Part shown: one piece after another, positions 10,229 to 27,217 of the stretch
Position numbering within the stretch: position 1 is the first letter of the stretch
Layout: each line of letters opens with the position of its first letter
Assembly: GCF_003418935.1 (NCBI RefSeq)
Contig: NZ_QVMT01000006.1
Coordinates: forward strand, 1 to 64,000
Direction of reading: 5' to 3'
Source: Emticicia sp. C21
GTDB lineage: Bacteria > Bacteroidota > Bacteroidia > Cytophagales > Spirosomataceae
Length of the DNA stretch: 64,000 nt
Notes under the pieces: generated by a model
Seen by the model: only the letters and a program-made list of their open reading frames with translations
Told to the model about the DNA's origin: nothing
Database searches by the model: none
Made by a program: the position numbers and the translations under genes

Positions 10229-11005
10229 TCAACCCACTTTTACAGATTTTATGTATTCTACTACATCAGTTTTAATATCTGAGGCTGCTTGTAAAACACG
10301 GATAAACTGGCTACCAATAATAGCTCCTGCAGCATATTCTGAGGCTTTGGTGAAAGTTTCGTGGTCTTTTATACCAAAACCAATTAATCTTGGGTTTTTC
10401 AGATTCATGGCATTAACCCGATTGAAATATGCTTCCATTTCGTCAGAAATACCAGAAGTTTTACCGGTTACGCTGGCGCTACTTACCATGTAAATAAAGC
10501 CACCTGAAATCTCGTCGATGCGGCGTATACGGGCCTCTGTTGTCTGTGGTGTAATCAGGAAGATATTTAGCAAACCATATTTATCAAAAACAGGCTTGTA
10601 TTCTTCCTCATATTCGTCCATCGGCAGGTCAGGCAGAATCATTCCATCAACACCCACTTCCTGACATTTCTGGCAGAAGTTCTCGATACCAAATTGTAAA
10701 ACCGGATTGATATAACCCATCAGAATAACGGGTATTTGTACCTTTTCACGCATGCCTTTTAACTGCTCAAAAAGCACTTTCAGGCTCATGCCATTATCTA
10801 ATGCAATCTGGTTTGATTGTTGGATAGTTTCACCATCAGCCACAGGGTCTGAGTAGGGCATACCAATTTCAGCAATATCTGCTCCTGCTTCCTGCAATGC
10901 TTCCAGAATTGGCATGGTATCATTCAGCGTGGGATAGCCTGCAGTGAAATATAAATTCAATACGCTATGAAGCTTAGTTTGAAAAAGCTCTGTAATACGA
11001 TTCAT
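10229..11005 (-). CDS. trpA: Tryptophan synthase alpha chain
   Basis: Cleaves indole-3-glycerol phosphate to indole and glyceraldehyde-3-phosphate; indole passes through a tunnel to TrpB in the alpha2-beta2 complex. The 258-residue length is normal. The signature GADIAEIGMPYSDPVADGE carries the catalytic Glu (residue 46), and the phosphate-binding loops near FGIKDHE and GAIIGSQF are present. It is the last gene of the operon, separated from trpB by a Dabb gene and a hairpin, so it may be transcribed at a different level from trpB or have its own promoter. Confidence 0.96.
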   Translation of the reverse strand: MNRITELFQTKLHSVLNLYFTAGYPTLNDTMPILEALQEAGADIAEIGMPYSDPVADGETIQQSNQIALDNGMSLKVLFEQLKGMREKVQIPVILMGYINPVLQFGIENFCQKCQEVGVDGMILPDLPMDEYEEEYKPVFDKYGLLNIFLITPQTTEARIRRIDEISGGFIYMVSSASVTGKTSGISDEMEAYFNRVNAMNLKNPRLIGFGIKDHETFTKASEYAAGAIIGSQFIRVLQAASDIKTDVVEYIKSVKVG

Positions 11006-11042
11006 AAATAAATGAGATAAAAATACGCGAAGATGAAAAGAG

Positions 11043-11082
11043 CAGGCGAGCGTTACATTATCTAACAGATTTCGCTCGCCTG
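11043..11082 (-). terminator. Hairpin between the Dabb gene and trpA
   Basis: A perfect 10-bp G+C-rich stem (CAGGCGAGCG/CGCTCGCCTG) with a 20-base loop lies between the two minus-strand genes. On the minus strand it is followed only by CTCTTTTC, not a strong U-tract, so it may reduce rather than stop transcription into trpA, or protect an RNA end. Confidence 0.45.
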
Positions 11083-11092
11083 ATAGGGGCGA

Positions 11093-11473
11093 TTATTTAC
11101 TTGCCCAATAATCAAGTACCAGAACTTTATCTAAATGTGGGCCTAAAACGCCAACAAAGGCTTTATGTGCCGGATGAGGAAGATATATCTCACGGTCTTT
11201 TTCTGATTTGAATGTTACAAAGAACAAGTGAGTAAATCCCTGGTTCAGGTTTTCAGGGCTATTATTTGTTCCCCACTCAAAACCTTCGATTTCTTTAATC
11301 TGGCTTTTTAATGCCCTGAAAGCATCCTCTACTTTTTTTACGTCCGCAGGACTGCTAGAATCTTTAAATTTGAGTAAAACAGCGTGACGAAGGAGTTTCG
11401 CAGGCTCTTTTGTTTGTGCATTTGCCATGTAAGTGAACGAAAATAAAGCGATGGTTAATAAAAGGGTTTTCAT
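11093..11473 (-). CDS. Exported Dabb-domain (stress-responsive barrel) protein
   Basis: 126 residues with a signal peptide (1-19, ending NAQ) and one Dabb ferredoxin-like alpha/beta-barrel domain: LRHAVLLKFKDSSSPADVKKVE at about 28-49 and the C-terminal HPAHKAFVGVLGPHLDKVLVLD. Dabb proteins usually dimerise; some act on polyketides, but most bacterial ones have no known function. Its place inside the trp operon, between trpB and trpA, is odd because an exported protein has no evident role in tryptophan synthesis. Confidence 0.85.
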   Translation of the reverse strand: MKTLLLTIALFSFTYMANAQTKEPAKLLRHAVLLKFKDSSSPADVKKVEDAFRALKSQIKEIEGFEWGTNNSPENLNQGFTHLFFVTFKSEKDREIYLPHPAHKAFVGVLGPHLDKVLVLDYWASK

Positions 11474-11524
11474 TGTTTATTTTGGATTGTTATTTGATAG
11501 AATTAAATTCCTAAGTGTAATACA

Positions 11525-12733
11525 TTACAAATATTTCATATAAGTAGCCAAATCCTTATCTCCACGACCGGAAAGATTGACGACTACCGTTTCATTTGCC
11601 TCGGCATTGAGGTATTTTAAAACACTTAGTGCATGAGCCGATTCTATGGCAGGAATGATACCTTCTAGTTTAGTCAACTCAAAACCTGCTTCAATAGATT
11701 CTTCGTCGGTAATAGCATAGAATTTAGCTCTGCCAGAATCCCATAGATGTGCGTGTAAAGGACCAATACCCGGGTAATCTAATCCGGCTGAGATACTTTG
11801 GGGTTCTACCACTTGTCCATCTTCGGTTTGCATTAATATACTTTTGCTGCCATGTAAAACTCCCGGCTTGCCCAGGAATGTAGTAGCTGCCGACATACCT
11901 GAATGAATGCCATGTCCACCTGCTTCAGCTGCTATGAGTTTTACATCTAATTCATCTAAGAAATGATAGAATGCTCCGGCAGCATTAGAACCGCCACCCA
12001 CACAAGCAATGACATAATCAGGATTTTCTTTACCTGTTTTTTCTAATAACTGCGAACGGATTTCTTCTGAAATAATCGATTGGAATCGGGCTACCATATC
12101 AGGGTAGGGATGAGGGCCCACTACACTTCCGATGATGTAGTGTGTATCTACAGGATTATTAATCCAATGTCTTAAGGCTTCATTAGTTGCATCTTTCAGG
12201 GTTTTTGACCCACTGGTGGCAGGACGAACCTCTGCGCCAAGCATTTTCATACGAGCCACATTGGGTGCCTGACGTTGAATGTCGATTTCTCCCATATACA
12301 CGATACATTCTAAACCCATCAAGGCACAAACAGTTGCTGTAGCTACTCCATGCTGACCCGCTCCTGTTTCGGCTACTATTTTATGTTTGCCCAAACGTTT
12401 AGCCAATAATATCTGCCCGATAGTATTGTTCACCTTATGCGCACCTGTATGACACAGGTCTTCCCGTTTCAGGTAAATATTGGTTTTATATTTTTCTGAT
12501 AGGCGAGTAGCATAATACAGAGGCGTAGGACGACCCACATAGTTCTTCAACAAATTCTGAAATTCTTCCTGAAAATCAGCCTGGTGAATAATCTGCAGAT
12601 AGTTTTGTTGTAACTCCTCTACATTCGGATGTAACATTTCAGGAATATAGGCTCCCCCAAATTTCCCATAATAGCCTTTGGCATTTACTGCAAAGGCCGT
12701 TTCTTGTCCTTTATGTTGTTCTGTACTCGTCAT
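11525..12733 (-). CDS. trpB: Tryptophan synthase beta chain
   Basis: PLP enzyme that joins indole and serine to give tryptophan. 402 residues, typical of TrpB1. The PLP lysine is Lys100 in HTGAHKVNN; the glycine-rich phosphate loop [10 protein letters not shown] and the monovalent-cation and COMM-domain regions are present, with [10 protein letters not shown] nearby. It follows trpF with 32 bases between them and precedes the Dabb gene. It pairs with trpA, which is normally adjacent. Confidence 0.97.
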
Positions 12734-12765
12734 CTTTATATTATTTTTCTATAGTAATTTTTCTA

Positions 12766-13404
12766 TCATACCTGCACACTTTTTCGCTCCTTCAATTTTG
12801 TAATCAGTTCTGCTACTTTTTCGATGTCCTTTACGCCTGGCTCAATCTCAAATTTGCTATTTACATCAAGCGAATAAGGTTTAGGCGTAATGCTTGCCAA
12901 TTCGTCTAAATTGCCAAGACTGATACCTCCGGCTAAAAAATAAGGCTTCTGGTTATCATACTTTTTCAGAATGCTCCAATCAAATGCTATTCCGTTACCA
13001 CCGTAGCCATCTCCTTTGGCATCAAACAAAAAGAAATCGACATGCGGTTTATAGTTATTCAACTGGCTGAAAATAAATGATTCATCTAAACGAAATGCCT
13101 TAATAATATTTATACCTTTCATCCTTAGGTTTTTGCAAAAATCCGGGGTCTCATTGCCGTGCAATTGCACGTAATTAAGCCCGTATTTTTTGACATTCTG
13201 CAAGATGTAATCAACTGTTGCGTTCACAAAAACACCCACTTTTCTGATTTCTCTTGGTATCGACTGAATCAATTCAGCATCTAAAGTATTACCGACGAAT
13301 CGCGGAGACTTATCGTAAAAAATAAAGCCGATAAAGTCAGGTTTTAATTCAACAAGTGCTTTAATGTTTTCGGCATCACGCATGCCACAGACTTTCAGTT
13401 TCAT
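12766..13404 (-). CDS. trpF: Phosphoribosylanthranilate isomerase
   Basis: Amadori rearrangement of phosphoribosylanthranilate to CdRP. 212 residues forming a TIM barrel. The catalytic Cys lies in the N-terminal LKVCGMRD and the catalytic Asp in FFLFDAKGDG; the phosphate loop FLAGGIS and the C-terminal SLDVNSKFE fit the family. It is a separate gene and not fused to trpC. A 109-base gap to trpC contains no clear signal. Confidence 0.95.
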   Translation of the reverse strand: MKLKVCGMRDAENIKALVELKPDFIGFIFYDKSPRFVGNTLDAELIQSIPREIRKVGVFVNATVDYILQNVKKYGLNYVQLHGNETPDFCKNLRMKGINIIKAFRLDESFIFSQLNNYKPHVDFFLFDAKGDGYGGNGIAFDWSILKKYDNQKPYFLAGGISLGNLDELASITPKPYSLDVNSKFEIEPGVKDIEKVAELITKLKERKSVQV

Positions 13405-13513
13405 AAAAAATATTTCCTTGCCCCCAAAGGAAATTTAATTTTACTCATACTCGGGACAAAAGCATGAATTTTAGAAAAATGGAGAAAAAAGACGTCAAAA
13501 TTAACATTTTTTC

Positions 13514-14317
13514 TTAGATTTTAGCAATAAATTCAGCGAGTTTTGCGCCCGGATTCTCATCTTTCATAAAGGTTTCGCCAATCAGAAAACCTTTGTATCC
13601 TACAGATTTCAATTGATTAATCGTTTCCGGCTGACTAATACAACTTTCCGAAATCTTCACAATCCTTGCTGGAATTTTATCTGCCAATCCCAACGAAGCA
13701 TTCACATTGTTCTCAGCAAAGTTTTTCAGATTTCTATTATTCACCCCAATAATATCAACATTGGCTAACGGACTTCTCTCTAATTCTTCCTCATCATGAA
13801 TTTCCAACAATACTTCCAATCCCAATTCATGTGCTTTCTGGCTTAGTTCCTCTATCTGAGCAGGGCTTAAACAAGCAGCAATCAACAAGATAACATCAGC
13901 GCCCCATGCCTTGGCTTCATAGAGTTGATAAGCATCAATCATGAAGTCTTTTCTTAGGATTGGCGTATCAGGATTCGCATTTCTGGCTTTAAGAATATCC
14001 TCTTTTGCACCACCAAAAAAGTCAGTATCTGTCAGTACAGATAAGCCCGATGCGCCTGCGGTTGCATAACCATTGGTAACAAATTCAACAGTCAACCGGT
14101 CGTTAATAACCCCTTTTGAAGGAGACTTACGTTTATGCTCAGCTATAATTCCCGAAGAACCGTCGGCTTTCAATCGGATGCTCAATGAAATGGTGGTCCT
14201 TGAAAAAAGCGGTTCTTTTACTAAGTCTTCTATAGAAATTTTAGCTTTGGCTTCGGCTACTTCTATGGCTTTCTGTGCAACTATTTTATCTAAAATGGTC
14301 ATGTTTTCGGTATTCAA
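13514..14317 (-). CDS. trpC: Indole-3-glycerol phosphate synthase
   Basis: Closes the indole ring from CdRP with loss of CO2 and water. 267 residues, single-domain TIM barrel. Visible: IIAEHKRKSPSKG with the catalytic Lys, ILRKDFMIDAYQ, LLEIHDEEEL, and NNRNLKNF. The annotated start (14317) gives a five-residue extension before a second ATG (14302) from which the homologous part TILDKIVAQK begins; either is possible. It lies 16 bases after trpD. Confidence 0.96.
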   Translation of the reverse strand: MNTENMTILDKIVAQKAIEVAEAKAKISIEDLVKEPLFSRTTISLSIRLKADGSSGIIAEHKRKSPSKGVINDRLTVEFVTNGYATAGASGLSVLTDTDFFGGAKEDILKARNANPDTPILRKDFMIDAYQLYEAKAWGADVILLIAACLSPAQIEELSQKAHELGLEVLLEIHDEEELERSPLANVDIIGVNNRNLKNFAENNVNASLGLADKIPARIVKISESCISQPETINQLKSVGYKGFLIGETFMKDENPGAKLAEFIAKI

Positions 14318-14333
14318 TGGGTAGTTTTATGGC

Positions 14334-15320
14334 TTATTCTTCAACTAGTTTTTTTAAGGCATTCAAGGCTTTTTTACTTTCTAACGATTCTTTCGCTTGC
14401 GCGATTCCCTCGGCAATACTAATGCCTCTAGCCACACTCAAAGCTACTCCGGCATTGGCTAATACCACATTAGTCTGGGCTTTGGTACCTTTATTCTCTA
14501 AAATATTGATAAGAATATTAGCTGAATCTTCCAAAGTGTTTCCCCCATGCAAGTCTGATTGCTCGGTTAAATCAAAACTGAAATGAGAAGGCGAGTGGAC
14601 AAACACGCCATGACGGGTACCTATGTTAAAATCATTGGTAAATGAAATCTCGTCATACCCCCCTAAATCATGGATGATACCGAATTGCGCAGCCGAACGA
14701 TTGAACAATTGGGTATATAAATCAAACACTTTCATATCATATACACCTGTCAACTGCTTCTGCACTTTAGCCGGATTCAGTAAAGGTCCTAACATATTAA
14801 AGAAAGTCTTCATGGCTAATTCCTTGCGGATAGGTCCAACGAATCTCATGGCCGGATGAAACAAAGGTGCGTGCATATAACAGATGCCTGCCGTTTCAAT
14901 TTTGCGTTTCAGAAAATCGGTATTATTGGTAAATTTTACGCCTAAATATTCTAGAACAGTACTTGAACCGACAGCAGAAGATACGCCGTGATTGCCATGT
15001 TTGGCAATAGCTTGCCCGGCTCCTGCTACTATAAATGCCGAAGTAGTGGATATATTGAAAGTATCTTTGCCATCACCGCCTGTGCCACATACATCCATCG
15101 CATCAAACTCGGACAGGTCGATAGGTATAGCTAATTCAAGCATGGCTTGTTGAAAACCCTCTAATTCTTCCACCGTTACACCACGCATCTGAATCCCCAT
15201 TAGAAAAGCGGCAATCTGTGAATTATTGGTTTCTCCGCGACCTATTTTCAACAAGGCCTCTTTCGCTTCTTCACCGGATAATGTTTGGTTATGTAATAAA
15301 ATCTGCAAATACTGTTTCAT
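14334..15320 (-). CDS. trpD: Anthranilate phosphoribosyltransferase
   Basis: Transfers phosphoribose from PRPP to anthranilate. 328 residues. The PRPP-binding VCGTGGDGKDTFNIST, the KHGNHGVSS loop and the conserved GPLLNPA segment are all present. It is separate from trpG, as is usual in Bacteroidota. It lies 14 bases after trpG, indicating one transcript. Confidence 0.96.
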   Translation of the reverse strand: MKQYLQILLHNQTLSGEEAKEALLKIGRGETNNSQIAAFLMGIQMRGVTVEELEGFQQAMLELAIPIDLSEFDAMDVCGTGGDGKDTFNISTTSAFIVAGAGQAIAKHGNHGVSSAVGSSTVLEYLGVKFTNNTDFLKRKIETAGICYMHAPLFHPAMRFVGPIRKELAMKTFFNMLGPLLNPAKVQKQLTGVYDMKVFDLYTQLFNRSAAQFGIIHDLGGYDEISFTNDFNIGTRHGVFVHSPSHFSFDLTEQSDLHGGNTLEDSANILINILENKGTKAQTNVVLANAGVALSVARGISIAEGIAQAKESLESKKALNALKKLVEE

Positions 15321-15334
15321 TTCAATAATAGGTA

Positions 15335-15901
15335 TTAATTTTTTAACCAGTTTTCAACCATTTTCACACCATGCTGTGTTAGATAAGCTTCTGGATGGAA
15401 TTGTACGCCTCGCACATCATATTTGGTATGGGCTTCGGCCATCACAAAACCTTTTTCGTCAATGGCTGTTACTTTTAACTCTTCAGGCATAGTTTCTGAT
15501 ACCACAGTCCATGAATGATAGCGGCATACTTCTATCTTTTCAGGTACACCCTGAAAAAGCTTTTCATTGGTATCAGTGATTATACAAGAGGTAGTAACGC
15601 CATGTAATACATCGCCCATATTATGCAACTTAGCTCCAAAAGCTTCTCCGATAGCCTGATGTCCTAAGCATACCCCAAAGATGCTTTTCTTGGGGGCATA
15701 TTCTTTAATTACGTCAAGCATAATTCCTGCTTCTTCCGGTATGCCAGGTCCTGGCGAAAGCAGGATTTTATCGTATTGTGCTACGTCTTCTAAAGCTATT
15801 TTATCATTTCTGAATACATCTACGTTTCCACCCAGGTCTTTTAGAATATAGACCAGGTTATAAACGAATGAATCATAATTATCAAGAACCAGAATTTTCA
15901 T
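15335..15901 (-). CDS. trpG: Anthranilate synthase glutamine amidotransferase subunit
   Basis: Class I glutaminase that supplies ammonia to TrpE. 188 residues, with the nucleophile Cys78 in GVCLGHQAIG and the His/Glu pair in VQFHPEA. The oxyanion segment SPGPGIPEEAG is visible. In some bacteria the same subunit also serves PabB; this cannot be told here. It lies 85 bases after trpE, and that gap holds a small palindrome. Confidence 0.94.
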   Translation of the reverse strand: MKILVLDNYDSFVYNLVYILKDLGGNVDVFRNDKIALEDVAQYDKILLSPGPGIPEEAGIMLDVIKEYAPKKSIFGVCLGHQAIGEAFGAKLHNMGDVLHGVTTSCIITDTNEKLFQGVPEKIEVCRYHSWTVVSETMPEELKVTAIDEKGFVMAEAHTKYDVRGVQFHPEAYLTQHGVKMVENWLKN

Positions 15902-15986: not shown

Positions 15987-17411
15987 TCATATATCGCTTG
16001 CCATTTCAATGGCTTTTCTTAGAGCGGCTAGTTTCAGATGAATTTCTTTCATTTCTAGCTCAACATCTGATTTGGCTACTACGCCCATACCTGCCTGATA
16101 GAATAATGTATTGTTTTTACTTAAGAATGTACGAATCGCAATGGCATGGTTAAAATTGCCTTTGAAATCCATGAAACCTATGGCACCTCCGTAGATGCTA
16201 CGATTGGTCGGTTCAAAACGGTTAATGATGGTCATGGCATTGTGCTTAGGTGCGCCAGAGAGTGTACCAGCCGGGAAAGTGTCGGCTACCAATTGTAGCG
16301 GATTCGTACCCTTATGCATTTTTCCGGTTACTTTTGAAACCAGATGGATTACATGGCTGTAGAACTGTACTTCTTTGAATATATCTACTTTTACCGAATC
16401 CGAACTCCTCGATAAATCGTTGCGGGCTAAATCAACTAACATCACGTGTTCTGCTGATTCTTTAGGGTCGGCGTGTAGTTGACGGGCTAATTCAGCATCG
16501 CTTTCATCATCACCTGTACGTCTGAAAGTACCTGCAATCGGATGAATTTCGGCCTGACCGTCTTTGATAAAGATCTGTTTTTCCGGCGAACTTCCAAAGA
16601 TATGATAATCGCCACCATCAAAATAGAACAAGTAAGGAGATGGATTAATAGAACGAAGGGCACGATACACATTGAAATCATCACCCTCGAATGTTCTTGA
16701 AAAGCGTCTCGATGGCACTATCTGAAAAACATCACCTCTTAGACAATGACCGATACATTTATTGATGATGTCGCGCATGTCATCGTCATTAATATTGGTC
16801 GTTTCTTCGCTGTCAGCTTTGAATTTTGAGGTAGTTACTTTTGGGTTTTTCACGAAAAACTCTAAAGTCTCTAAACCATCTTTGGCAGGTTGAGGCTCTT
16901 GTCCGTCTGGTGTATAAGTATGTTCAAAAATATATAATTCGTCTTTGAAATGGTTTATCGCAATTACGTATCGGTAAACACGGTACAGGATTTGAGGAAT
17001 AGTAGTTTCAGCACTTTTTTCCTGTATTTCTATATCCTCAAAATATTCAACCGAATCGTAGGTAATATGTCCGAATAAACCATTGGTGATAAAATTGAAA
17101 TCGCTTTTGGGCATTTCGAATTGAGAAGCGAAATCTTTCAACACACCTACTGCTTCTTTTCGATTTGCTAAAGGGAATTGGTTTTTAGAGCCATTAGGGA
17201 ATTTCTGTGTAACAACGTCATTATCCAGAACAAAACTGGCTACTTCGTCGCAGGCAATATAACTGAAACTATTGTGCATAGCATGGTAATCGGCACTTTC
17301 GAGAATAACCGAATGCGGATAATGATTGCGGATTCTTTGAAAAATCCCGACCGGTGTAAGCATATCGGCCAATAAACGTTTGTAACGGGTGGTTATACCA
17401 AACTTTTGCAT
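15987..17411 (-). CDS. trpE: Anthranilate synthase component I
   Basis: Converts chorismate plus ammonia to anthranilate, the first committed step, and is normally feedback-inhibited by Trp. 474 residues. The C-terminal chorismate-binding domain shows CLRGDVFQIVPSRRFSR, GSSPEKQIFIKDG, IAGTFRRTGD, LVDLARNDL, FPAGTLSGAPK and IYGGAIGFMD. The N-terminal regulatory domain contains ILESADYH, matching the LLES Trp-binding box of the family. The start lies 5 bases after the PH-like gene, so expression depends on the attenuated transcript. Confidence 0.96.
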   Translation of the reverse strand: MQKFGITTRYKRLLADMLTPVGIFQRIRNHYPHSVILESADYHAMHNSFSYIACDEVASFVLDNDVVTQKFPNGSKNQFPLANRKEAVGVLKDFASQFEMPKSDFNFITNGLFGHITYDSVEYFEDIEIQEKSAETTIPQILYRVYRYVIAINHFKDELYIFEHTYTPDGQEPQPAKDGLETLEFFVKNPKVTTSKFKADSEETTNINDDDMRDIINKCIGHCLRGDVFQIVPSRRFSRTFEGDDFNVYRALRSINPSPYLFYFDGGDYHIFGSSPEKQIFIKDGQAEIHPIAGTFRRTGDDESDAELARQLHADPKESAEHVMLVDLARNDLSRSSDSVKVDIFKEVQFYSHVIHLVSKVTGKMHKGTNPLQLVADTFPAGTLSGAPKHNAMTIINRFEPTNRSIYGGAIGFMDFKGNFNHAIAIRTFLSKNNTLFYQAGMGVVAKSDVELEMKEIHLKLAALRKAIEMASDI

Positions 17412-17416
17412 TTCTA

Positions 17417-17827
17417 TCAGAGGTTTGTGCTAATATTTTTATTAATCAATTTCAATATTTGAATGAATTCAGTCTGCCTTTCTGGCGAAATAATCACAGA
17501 ATCATATTTATCATAGTATATCTCAATTCTATCTCTTACTGATAAAGCCGGAGAGCTAATAGGATTATCTGTTTTTTCTATTTTTCTAATCTTTTTTATG
17601 TCAACTTCCTGCTTGAACAAGAATCCACATACAATCTTTAAAGTATCTCCCTCAATCTGGTAATAGGTTCTAAACAAAAAACTAAGTATTAAAGCTGTTG
17701 CGCCTAAAAGAACAATTATCCCTATCCAAAGCTTTTGCATGACTGTCATGACTAACAATACCATGAGAAAACATAGTAGAGGAACGAAGAGCCAATAGCT
17801 TATTTTTGAGTTGAATCTTTGATACAT
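17417..17827 (-). CDS. Membrane protein with PH-like domain, first gene of the trp operon
   Basis: 136 residues from ATG 17827. A GTG seven codons upstream (17848) lies inside the attenuator stem and is rejected. Two hydrophobic helices (about residues 12-55: SYWLFVPLLCFLMVLLVMTV and IGIIVLLGATALILSFLF) are followed by a small beta domain resembling the bacterial PH_4/DUF1200 family, with YYQIEGDTLKIVCG, the central SSPALSVRDRIEIYY and the terminal SPERQTEFIQIL. The function is unknown. Its position between the leader and trpE, with a five-base gap, makes it part of the Trp-regulated transcript. Confidence 0.75.
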   Translation of the reverse strand: MYQRFNSKISYWLFVPLLCFLMVLLVMTVMQKLWIGIIVLLGATALILSFLFRTYYQIEGDTLKIVCGFLFKQEVDIKKIRKIEKTDNPISSPALSVRDRIEIYYDKYDSVIISPERQTEFIQILKLINKNISTNL

Positions 17828-17832
17828 GGCAC

Positions 17833-17868
17833 AAAAAAAGCGGCTCACAGGATGAACTGTAAGCCGCT
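17833..17868 (-). terminator. trp attenuator terminator
   Basis: On the minus strand AGCGGCTTACAG (17868-17857) pairs with CTGTGAGCCGCT (17850-17839) through 12 bp, including one G-U pair, around a six-base loop TTCATC, followed by seven U. This is an intrinsic terminator placed after the Trp-rich leader peptide and before the first structural gene. Its 5' arm end and loop (GTTCATCC) are also the 3' half of the alternative antiterminator stem. Confidence 0.9.
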
Positions 17869-17954
17869 GAATATATTTTGATTTCTCAATACATAGCTAC
17901 GCTGTTCATCCTTTTTTGGAAGAACGCCACCACCATATGTTAGCTATGATATTG
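17850..17954 (-). promoter_or_regulatory. Alternative RNA stems of the trp leader
   Basis: Pause stem: CAATATCATAGCTA (17954-17941, inside the leader reading frame) pairs with TAGCTATGTATTG (17899-17887) with one bulged base. Antiterminator: GGATGAAC (17911-17904, spanning the leader stop codon) pairs with GTTCATCC (17857-17850), which dismantles the terminator. A ribosome stalled on the Trp codons (17935-17927) covers the first arm but leaves GGATGAAC free, favouring read-through. A ribosome reaching the stop codon masks GGATGAAC and lets the terminator form. The stems are seen directly; the mechanism is inferred from the classical trp attenuation model. Confidence 0.85.
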
Positions 17955-17965
17955 TGTTGAGTCAT
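17906..17965 (-). CDS. trpL: trp operon leader peptide
   Basis: A 19-codon frame, MTQHNIIANIWWWRSSKKG, starting at ATG 17965 and ending in TGA. Three adjacent Trp codons in so short a peptide are diagnostic of a regulatory leader that senses charged tRNA-Trp. A promoter of the Bacteroidota type lies 24 bases upstream, and mutually exclusive stems plus a terminator follow. The peptide itself probably has no function after synthesis. Confidence 0.93.
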   Translation of the reverse strand: MTQHNIIANIWWWRSSKKG

Positions 17966-17988
17966 TGTCTATGTTTACTATCTTGTTA

Positions 17989-18017
17989 CAAAAGTATTGA
18001 GTAATTTTTTAAAACAA
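17989..18017 (-). promoter_or_regulatory. trp operon promoter
   Basis: On the minus strand TTG (18017-18015), 18 bases, then TACTTTTG (17996-17989) fits the Bacteroidota sigma-A consensus TTG/TAnnTTTG. Transcription would begin roughly 15-20 bases before the leader ATG. Confidence 0.7.
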
Positions 18018-18080: not shown

Positions 18081-18479
18081 TTACTTATACGTATCAATAA
18101 TACCCCCATTCTGAAACGATACCTCTTTTACCAGACTGGCGGCATTAAAATAGAGAAGCATAGAAAGCGAATTGGTTGCGTTCTGAATATGCTCACATTG
18201 CGGCCCTTTTTCCAGAAAATATACAAAGACTTTTTCATTGCGTCGGCTCAGTATCTGATAATCATATCGTCCGAAGTTTTCAATAATCTGATTTTCGCTT
18301 AATCCCAGTATTTTGGGTTTTAAGGCTTTTAAAGGCTCAATCAGTTTTACTCTCTTATCTTCACAACCTCCACGGTCGGTCTTAAAATTTTGCAAATCAA
18401 AGTCGCCTAAATCTGCTTTTTTCTTCTGGCAGGCAAAGGCAAATAAAGCCAGAAGAGCAATTACTAATATTTTACGCAT
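18081..18479 (-). CDS. Small lipoprotein of unknown function
   Basis: 132 residues. A short signal with lipobox FAFAC puts the lipidated Cys at position 17, followed by a Lys-rich spacer. The mature part has two further Cys (GGCEDK, PQCEHI) that could form a disulphide and no family I recognise. A segment KILGLSENQIIENFGRYDYQ looks like the SmpA/BamE-type turn (a helix then a G-x-aromatic) but is not enough for a call. It lies just downstream of the Gfo/Idh/MocA gene (5 bases), so the two may be co-transcribed. Confidence 0.65.
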   Translation of the reverse strand: MRKILVIALLALFAFACQKKKADLGDFDLQNFKTDRGGCEDKRVKLIEPLKALKPKILGLSENQIIENFGRYDYQILSRRNEKVFVYFLEKGPQCEHIQNATNSLSMLLYFNAASLVKEVSFQNGGIIDTYK

Positions 18480-25978: not shown

Positions 25979-27217
25979 CTACTCAAAGCTTCTGATAGTG
26001 TCTGAAATAATCTCGATACAATCCCATAATTGAGATTCTGTCATTACTAAAGGTGGTGCCAGACGTATTTTATTACCATGTGTAGGTTTAGCCAATACAC
26101 CATTATCTTTCAATTTATTACAGATATCCCAGGCAAGGTCAGAATCTTCTGTTGTATCAATTAAAATAGCATTTAATAAGCCTTTGCCGCGCACTTGCGT
26201 AACAATGGTTGTTTCAACTACCAACTTCTGCATTTCCTGACGGAAGATGTTTCCTAAAAGCTCAGCATTTTCAGCCAGATTTTCCTCTTTTACCACTTTC
26301 AATGCTTCCATAGCCACTGCACAAGCCAATGGGTTACCACCATAGGTAGATCCATGCTCTCCCGGTTTCAGCGTAAGCATAATCTCATCATCTGCCAATA
26401 CTGCGGATACCGGTAAAACTCCTCCAGAAAGGGCTTTGCCCAGAATAATCATATCCGGACGAATATTGTAATGGTCAGTTGCCAATAGCTTACCTGTTCG
26501 GGCAATACCTGTCTGAATCTCGTCAGCGATGAAAAGTACATTGCTTGCTTTACACATTCTATAAGCCTCCGGTAAATACTGGTCGTCAGGTACTACAACA
26601 CCTGCTTCTCCTTGGATAGGTTCTACTATAAAGCCTGCAATATATGGATCGTTGATTAGGGCTTCTTCTAAAGCTTCTATATTGTTGTAAGGCACTATTT
26701 CAATGCCTGTCATATAAGGCCCGAATTCTTTTTTGGCTGTTGGGTCAGTAGAAGCGGAAATAACTGATAGCGTGCGCCCGTGAAAATTACCTCCGGCAAA
26801 AATTATTTTTGCTTTGTTTTCAGGAATACCCTTCACCTGATAACCCCACTTCCGGCACAATTTCATAGCTGTTTCTACTGCTTCTACGCCTGTATTCATA
26901 GGCAATACACGGTCATAACCAAAGTATTGGGTAATGTATTCTTCAAAACGACCAAGCATCGAATTATAAAATGCCCTTGAAGTAAGCGTCAGCTTTTGTG
27001 ATTGCTCAATTAAAGCATTGATGATGCGAGGATGACAATGCCCCTGATTAACCGCAGAATAAGCCGATAGAAAGTCGTAGTAACGTTTGCCTTCAACATC
27101 CCATACATACACGCCTTTGCCTTTGTCTAAAACAACAGAAAGAGGATGATAATTATGGGCTCCGTAGCGTTCTTCCAATTCAATTAGTTGTTCGCTTAAT
27201 TGAGTGTCTACTAACAT
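25979..27217 (-). CDS. rocD: Ornithine--oxo-acid aminotransferase
   Basis: PLP enzyme that moves the delta-amino group of ornithine to 2-oxoglutarate, giving glutamate semialdehyde for proline or glutamate synthesis. 412 residues from ATG 27217; an in-frame ATG 23 codons upstream adds an unusual hydrophobic tail ([11 protein letters not shown]) and is rejected. The fold-type I signature [18 protein letters not shown] precedes the PLP lysine in [31 protein letters not shown] is the typical start of ornithine transaminases. It is divergent from an Lrp regulator, a classical arrangement for amino-acid catabolism. Confidence 0.93.

Follow-up and report, generated by a model that had tools for sequence, protein, structure and literature searches.

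The stretch of DNA analysed (64,000 nt, hereafter the window) comes from Emticicia sp. C21, a bacterium of a genus that NCBI taxonomy places in the Bacteroidota, Cytophagales, Leadbetterellaceae. Its minus strand carries a trp operon preceded by the elements listed in Table 1, and its TrpE is 93–95% identical to that of the three nearest named Emticicia strains. The candidate attenuator is followed by a bPH_4 ORF, then, 5 nt after the end of that ORF, by trpE, and then by trpG, trpD, trpC, trpF, trpB, a Dabb ORF and trpA. The original prediction had the element immediately before the trp genes; the trp operon does lie downstream, but the bPH_4 ORF (17827-17417) intervenes before trpE, so the two do not directly adjoin. 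Similar ORFs occupy this slot in loci L002 (where the ORF is shorter), L003 and L013, the domain itself having been searched in the window protein only, and in the other Emticicia loci seen about 117–215 nt separate the leader stop from trpE. The presence of a bPH_4-type ORF in some Emticicia loci and not in others suggests that it was gained in, or lost from, a Trp-regulated slot within the genus. Other insertions were encountered in passing. In the Allomuricauda/Flagellimonas loci L049, L058 and L077, the place between attenuator and trpE is taken by a GIY-YIG ORF (Pfam E 3.5e-17, a value for the protein of L077 alone); in Lacihabitans soyangensis (L008), direct repeats, MSDPLSHRYVGSAQPP in translation, lie between the terminator and trpE; and in the window itself the ORF between trpB and trpA (11093-11473, minus strand) encodes a stress-responsive A/B barrel (Dabb) protein with, by eye, a signal-peptide-like start.

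Table 1. Features of the trp region of the window, in the direction of transcription.
Feature	Position	Strand	Basis or remark
Upstream gene	18081-18479	-	precedes promoter and leader
Predicted promoter, Bacteroidota sigma-A type: TTG (18017-18015), N18, TACTTTTG (17996-17989)	17989..18017	-	sequence
Leader ORF, 19 codons and TGA, MTQHNIIANIWWWRSSKKG	17906..17965	-	sequence; Trp codons 17935-17927, stop 17908-17906
Protector (anti-antiterminator), 5' arm CAATATCATAGCTA	17941..17954	-	inside leader ORF, just before Trp codons; fold and pair counts in 37 relatives
Protector, 3' arm TAGCTATGTATTG	17887..17899	-	17899-17895 common to antiterminator; fold and pair counts
Antiterminator, 5' arm	17895..17912	-	contains leader stop; RNAduplex -18.3 kcal/mol, 15 pairs; seed 100% paired in 37 relatives
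Antiterminator, 3' arm	17849..17865	-	terminator loop and much of terminator 5' arm
Intrinsic terminator: 12-bp hairpin 17868-17839 (-20.6 kcal/mol) and U7 17839-17833	17833..17868	-	fold; covariation
Small protein with bPH_4 domain (bacterial PH domain, PF06713), 136 codons	17417..17827	-	Pfam E 1.5e-23
trpE, anthranilate synthase component I	15987..17411	-	Pfam PF00425, PF04715
trpG, trpD, trpC, trpF, trpB, Dabb-domain ORF, trpA	10229..15901	-	Pfam

The promoter, the 19-codon leader with its three adjacent Trp codons and the 12-bp terminator with seven U had all been read from the sequence beforehand, and all are present on the minus strand, the terminator as a hairpin at 17868-17839 with seven T at 17839-17833. 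A TANNTTTG box lies at the same distance in L002, L003 and L013 as in the window. In Flavobacterium psychrophilum the -7 box TANNTTTG sits at -12 to -5, according to a passage of PMC9723704, and on that spacing the transcript of the window is predicted to start at 17984, with a 5' UTR of 19 nt. The region 17826-17985 folds at -44.6 kcal/mol, compared with -30.4 kcal/mol (sd 3.5) for shuffled versions (z -4.1, none of 200 as good). Since protector and antiterminator both use 17899-17895, these two pairings directly exclude each other. Two exclusive pairings had been foreseen and both are there, but the size of 8 bp given for the antiterminator did not hold: that pairing, GGATGAAC (17911-17904) facing GTTCATCC in the terminator loop, would by itself open only the top pair of the terminator, whereas the best duplex has 15 bp and, being of this length, reaches into the 5' arm of the terminator. 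The leader stop does lie inside the antiterminator arm, as had been noted (TGA 17908-17906 within 17912-17895).

The window holds ten distinct short ATG ORFs with WW or WxW, five per strand; besides the trp leader, only one of these (at 26343, minus strand, without WW) is followed by a terminator-like hairpin (-12.9 kcal/mol), a weak one, and this second combination is probably due to chance. It could be argued that the trp terminator is constitutive, ending a short transcript or that of the upstream gene, with a Trp-rich ORF in front of it by accident. Intrinsic terminators after short transcripts are indeed common, and a model (R1) built from the alignment A1 of Cytophagales leaders described below matches eight other places in the genome of the strain, at up to 35.5 bits against 111.8 bits for the trp leader, so that terminator-like parts of the element are not rare. 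However, the predicted promoter separates the leader from the upstream gene, 17 control loci give no R1 match at E up to 1, and the combination of leader and terminator is found repeatedly before trpE. A rule requiring a Trp-rich leader and a terminator upstream of trpE has no hit when the reverse strands of 58 such upstream regions are scanned. A constitutive terminator is accordingly a highly improbable explanation.

The recurrence of the pair was assessed by applying this rule to 192 trpE loci: that of the window, 80 named loci (the best 80 of 207 TrpE relatives), 3 from Emticicia, and two further sets of 50 (L106-L155) and 58 (L156-L213), some species possibly being in both the named and the unnamed sets. 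The search that gave these 3 yielded 11 TrpE loci; the other 8, that of the strain itself included, were omitted as repeats of loci in the set, judged by leader and terminator. The rule was passed by 161 of the 192 regions; the 31 failures comprise 7 named loci, 10 from the class draw and 14 from other classes. Among the named loci 73 of 80 passed. Two of the failing ones offer little upstream sequence (2 nt in L047, 53 nt in L059), and in the other five (L019, L051, L052, L073 and L075) a leader that the rule missed is visible by eye, so that all 78 named loci with upstream sequence have a leader with WW or WWW before trpE, that of L075 starting with TTG. A draw of 198 genomes across the phylum gave 170 with a TrpE match, and all 45 with a match in the GTDB class of the window, its own genome included, passed the rule. 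In a further draw within the class, 43 of 119 genomes had a TrpE match; 30 of these were new and 23 were fetched, of which 13 passed, 8 failed and 2 were cut, 21 having usable upstream sequence (the 10 class-draw loci counted above as not passing include L144, with 9 nt upstream, and L143, with 157 nt and no WW leader there). Of 40 genomes from other classes of the phylum, hand-picked at one to a few per family and hence not a random sample, 26 passed and 14 failed. Four adjacent Trp codons occur in three leaders from these classes (L175, L178 and L204). In the flavobacterial loci L051, L052, L073 and L076, the trp hairpin has no uninterrupted T run directly after the stem, and termination there may therefore be weaker or differ.

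Covariation of the stems in related genomes had been proposed as a check, its absence being named as a refutation, and it is present in A1, which holds 37 Cytophagales leaders (L014, L020, L021, L032, L040, L041 and L042 being omitted, as were identical rows). In the terminator, 9 of 12 pairs have changed on both sides, 96.8% of cells pair, and none of 500 shuffles reaches the covariation score. The conserved part of the antiterminator is a seed of 6 bp (A1 columns 58-63 with 121-126), paired in 100% of cells; 13 sequences show a double change from U-A to A-U, and there are several G-U changes. Over all 15 bp of the antiterminator, 68.8% of cells pair, compared with at most 40.8% when slid. 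The covariation score is above all 500 shuffles, while the count of double-changed pairs in A1 is equalled or surpassed by 206 of the 500; its outer and inner helices pair in 34% and 54% of cells, respectively, and are mostly confined to Emticicia-like leaders. The protector behaves similarly: 69.9% of cells pair, compared with 30–46% when slid, and none of 500 shuffles attains its score, while 133 of them attain its number of double-changed pairs in A1. The seed is retained where the stop codon has moved. The ORF ends earlier, at TAG, and is followed by GATGAACAG in L004-L007, and ends at TAA followed by TCGTGA in L055 and L061, the seed being kept in both groups; L048 and L051 have TAA as stop where others have TGA, and a corresponding CUUACGA in the loop of the terminator. 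In 112 of the 161 leaders, the best antiterminator pairs one or more bases of the stop codon.

The specificity of the pairing between leader and terminator was measured over the 161 leaders. The best duplex of a leader with its own terminator averages -16.5 kcal/mol, compared with -11.4 kcal/mol with the terminators of other clusters and -9.9 kcal/mol for shuffled leaders. Own pairing beats the swapped mean in 26 of 28 cluster representatives (Wilcoxon p 2.5e-7) and in 151 of all 161 leaders, although it ranks in the best 5% of swaps for only 41 of the 161 leaders and 13 of the 28 representatives. Each leader was also folded with a ribosome footprint placed at the stop codon or on the Trp codons (the second Trp codon if there are several), the measure being any pairing of terminator bases with upstream sequence. 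Mean sequestration of the terminator over the 161 leaders is 0.93 with the ribosome stalled at Trp, 0.24 with the ribosome at the stop and 0.36 without a ribosome. It exceeds 0.6 at Trp in 153 leaders and is below 0.4 at the stop in 119, while 42 stay at or above 0.4 at the stop codon; the Trp value exceeds the stop value by more than 0.3 in 138. When the stretch between Trp codons and terminator is shuffled, the Trp value falls from 0.93 to 0.47, the own sequence giving the higher value in 156 of 161. A ribosome at the stop covers the antiterminator arm for 0.81 of pairs, a moderate excess over the 0.64 expected from uniform placement, and a ribosome at Trp for 0.03, compared with 0.06, the search for the arm having been confined to sequence downstream of the last Trp codon. 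In the window, sequestration of the terminator is 1.00 with the ribosome at Trp, 0.01 with it at the stop and 0.78 without a ribosome. The model thus predicts a clear switch between a stalled and a terminating ribosome, and a state without ribosome that is not clearly terminating.

The elements in place, their conservation, the covariation, the swap test and the footprint folding agree, and the element is therefore most probably (at about 0.93) a ribosome-mediated transcription attenuator of the trp operon. What typifies such an attenuator is found here, namely a leader with consecutive Trp codons before the trp operon and a conserved terminator with an exclusive antiterminator, the choice between the two structures being decided, in silico, by whether the ribosome is on Trp or at the stop. 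From this I infer the transcript start, translation of the leader, termination in vivo and dependence on Trp. In the mechanism proposed, RNA polymerase would transcribe the leader with a ribosome following. When Trp-tRNA is plentiful, the ribosome would reach the stop inside the antiterminator arm and cover that arm, so that the terminator hairpin would form before 17833. When Trp-tRNA is scarce, it would stall on the three Trp codons and cover the 5' arm of the protector; the antiterminator (17912-17895 with 17865-17849) would then form first and capture the terminator loop and part of the terminator 5' arm. With the terminator blocked, polymerase would go on to transcribe the bPH_4 gene and trpEGDCFBA. 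If no ribosome is present, the protector hairpin is expected to tip the balance towards the terminator. Read-through into the trp genes would thus probably occur only under tryptophan scarcity.

Another sensor acting on the same terminator, such as a T-box that reads tRNA-Trp, a TRAP-like protein or an RNA that binds tryptophan, would also be compatible with a structured leader and a terminator upstream of the trp genes; the short ORF would then be incidental. However, no Rfam family, T-box included, matches the window at threshold, and the eight weaker matches include no T-box. Most loci examined retain the Trp codons, and the logic of the pairings agrees with the positions of the ribosome, so that such a sensor is very unlikely. 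T-box, TRAP-like and riboswitch readings were set aside on the evidence of Rfam searches of the window only. Alternatively, translation of the leader could act by reinitiation or by general translation coupling, with no sensing of Trp by termination. Part of PMC4833913 proposes reinitiation for leader genes that end near the next start, Bacteroidetes included; yet in the window 78 nt, with a covarying terminator in between, separate the leader end from the next ATG, and the same source states that attenuation needs a longer distance of this kind, at least 40 bp. Reinitiation or coupling is correspondingly difficult to credit, and ribosome-mediated attenuation is the reading retained below.

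How far such an element had been described in the Bacteroidota, a point left open by the original prediction, is answered by RF01692 (Bacteroid-trp, 'Bacteroidete tryptophan peptide leader RNA') and by papers that already place such leaders in the phylum: Table 1 of Weinberg et al. 2010, in the portion of PMC2864571 that concerns it, gives a likely RNA that is likely cis-regulatory, and a section of PMC6414381 discusses the family as a trp leader; a published account concerning F. psychrophilum compares it to the leader of E. coli. An impression that the element was undescribed, gained from a search of the window against Rfam at gathering level, was overturned when relatives matched RF01692. 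The family matches L050, L064 and L107 over the leaders found here (16 loci searched, 15 of them trp), and L055 as well. In the window RF01692 has no match at gathering (49 bits), nor is it among the eight matches at E up to 10, and it has none in the genome of the strain. Some members of A1, Cytophagales like Emticicia, may bridge the gap to the window, one scoring above the cut-off of 49 bits and two below it (Arcicella aurantiaca, L036, 49.5; Arcicella rosea, L023, 47.8; Flectobacillus, L027, 39.4), and L219 reaches 49.5 bits, a match by score alone. RF01692 matches at least 4 of 61 genomes of the GTDB family of the window, at least 2 of them above the cut-off, in a search whose filters lose weak matches. 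None of 20 leaders from other classes, out of the 26 found, was recognised by it. In the reverse direction, R1 detects the trpE leader in each of 33 flavobacterial loci, at 23.5–50.1 bits; as other places in the genome of the strain reach 35.5 bits, this is weak evidence of homology. The element of the window resembles the family in that it too is a Trp leader peptide RNA of the Bacteroidota. The seeds differ: in the Flavobacteriaceae of the set, UCGUGA pairs with UCACGA, which spans the terminator loop and the first part of its 3' arm, whereas in the Cytophagales UGAACAG pairs with CUGUUCA, made up of the last part of the 5' arm and the loop.

In the trp attenuator of E. coli (RF00513, Trp_leader), Trp codons in a short ORF, exclusive hairpins and an intrinsic terminator precede trpE. 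The same elements are present in the window, where RF00513 scores 20.4 bits (E 0.098), below its gathering score of 41 bits. In E. coli the leader stop codon lies just before segment 2, whereas in the window it lies inside the antiterminator arm. Closer to Emticicia, transcriptome maps of F. psychrophilum, one of the Flavobacteriaceae, likewise have structured 5' leaders before amino-acid operons, with strong indications that leader peptides attenuate operons for amino-acid biosynthesis (PMC9723704), a paper whose main text does not contain 'trp'. Leader-peptide-like sORFs are mentioned for B. thetaiotaomicron in an extract of PMC7366714. Among the matches listed in a literature search, no paper deals with attenuation of trp in Emticicia, with seeds that contain a stop codon or with leaderless trp leaders of Bacteroidota, which weighs little as most subscription journals lie outside that search.

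The last of these topics arises from the position of the promoter. In 44 of the 161 leaders, the end of TANNTTTG is 4 or 5 nt upstream of the leader ATG, which predicts a transcript start at, or 1 nt before, the ATG. Such predicted leaderless ORFs account for 35 of 74 named loci (the window being counted here), 9 of 61 other loci of the same class and none of 26 from other classes, where TANNTTTG occurs within 60 nt in only 5 of the 26; the background of TANNTTTG further upstream is 0.043 per 100 nt. With its predicted 5' UTR of 19 nt, the window is not of this type. Only 5.5% of the mRNAs of F. psychrophilum are leaderless, according to an excerpt of PMC9723704. A parallel is trpL of Sinorhizobium meliloti, whose transcript begins at the ATG in the account given in a passage of PMC7298713. 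It shares with the leaders studied here attenuation by a Trp leader peptide and, with the 44 of 161, a start at the ATG as predicted within 0–1 nt; it differs in being alphaproteobacterial, and from the window by the 19-nt 5' UTR predicted for the latter.

The kind of element is thus already known in the phylum, and that of Emticicia is a diverged new example outside the public RF01692 model. What is new are the leaders from other classes that Rfam misses, an antiterminator arm that in many leaders encloses the stop codon, and the predicted leaderless ORFs in 44 of 161. A hypothesis, for which I would give even odds, is that leader-peptide attenuation is the ancestral trp control in Bacteroidota, including the classes that RF01692 misses, with an architecture of its own: the stop codon would be part of the antiterminator seed, which would make the terminating ribosome itself the off-switch, and the leader ORF of many genera would start at the first base of the transcript, leaderless, in bacteria not reliant on Shine-Dalgarno sequences. 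With this locus, trp attenuation outside the proteobacterial model can be tested on a diverged example. RF01692 sees only part of the trp leaders in the comparative set. Terminators covarying with a stop-codon-containing seed would help to annotate such leaders across Bacteroidota, and the predicted leaderless ones pose the question of how ribosome loading can be fast enough for control of termination without a Shine-Dalgarno sequence.

Elsewhere in the genome of the strain, no attenuator was seen before hisG and pheA. One of its two PF00920 (IlvD/Edd) genes (L216) is preceded, 265-211 nt upstream of the start of the PF00920 domain, by a leader, MSQNKVIIVPIILLLNK. After the stop of this leader, GTGAAGAAGG is complementary to CCTTCTTCAC of the terminator that follows, and from its sequence the element is likely to be a branched-chain attenuator of a build similar to the trp one.
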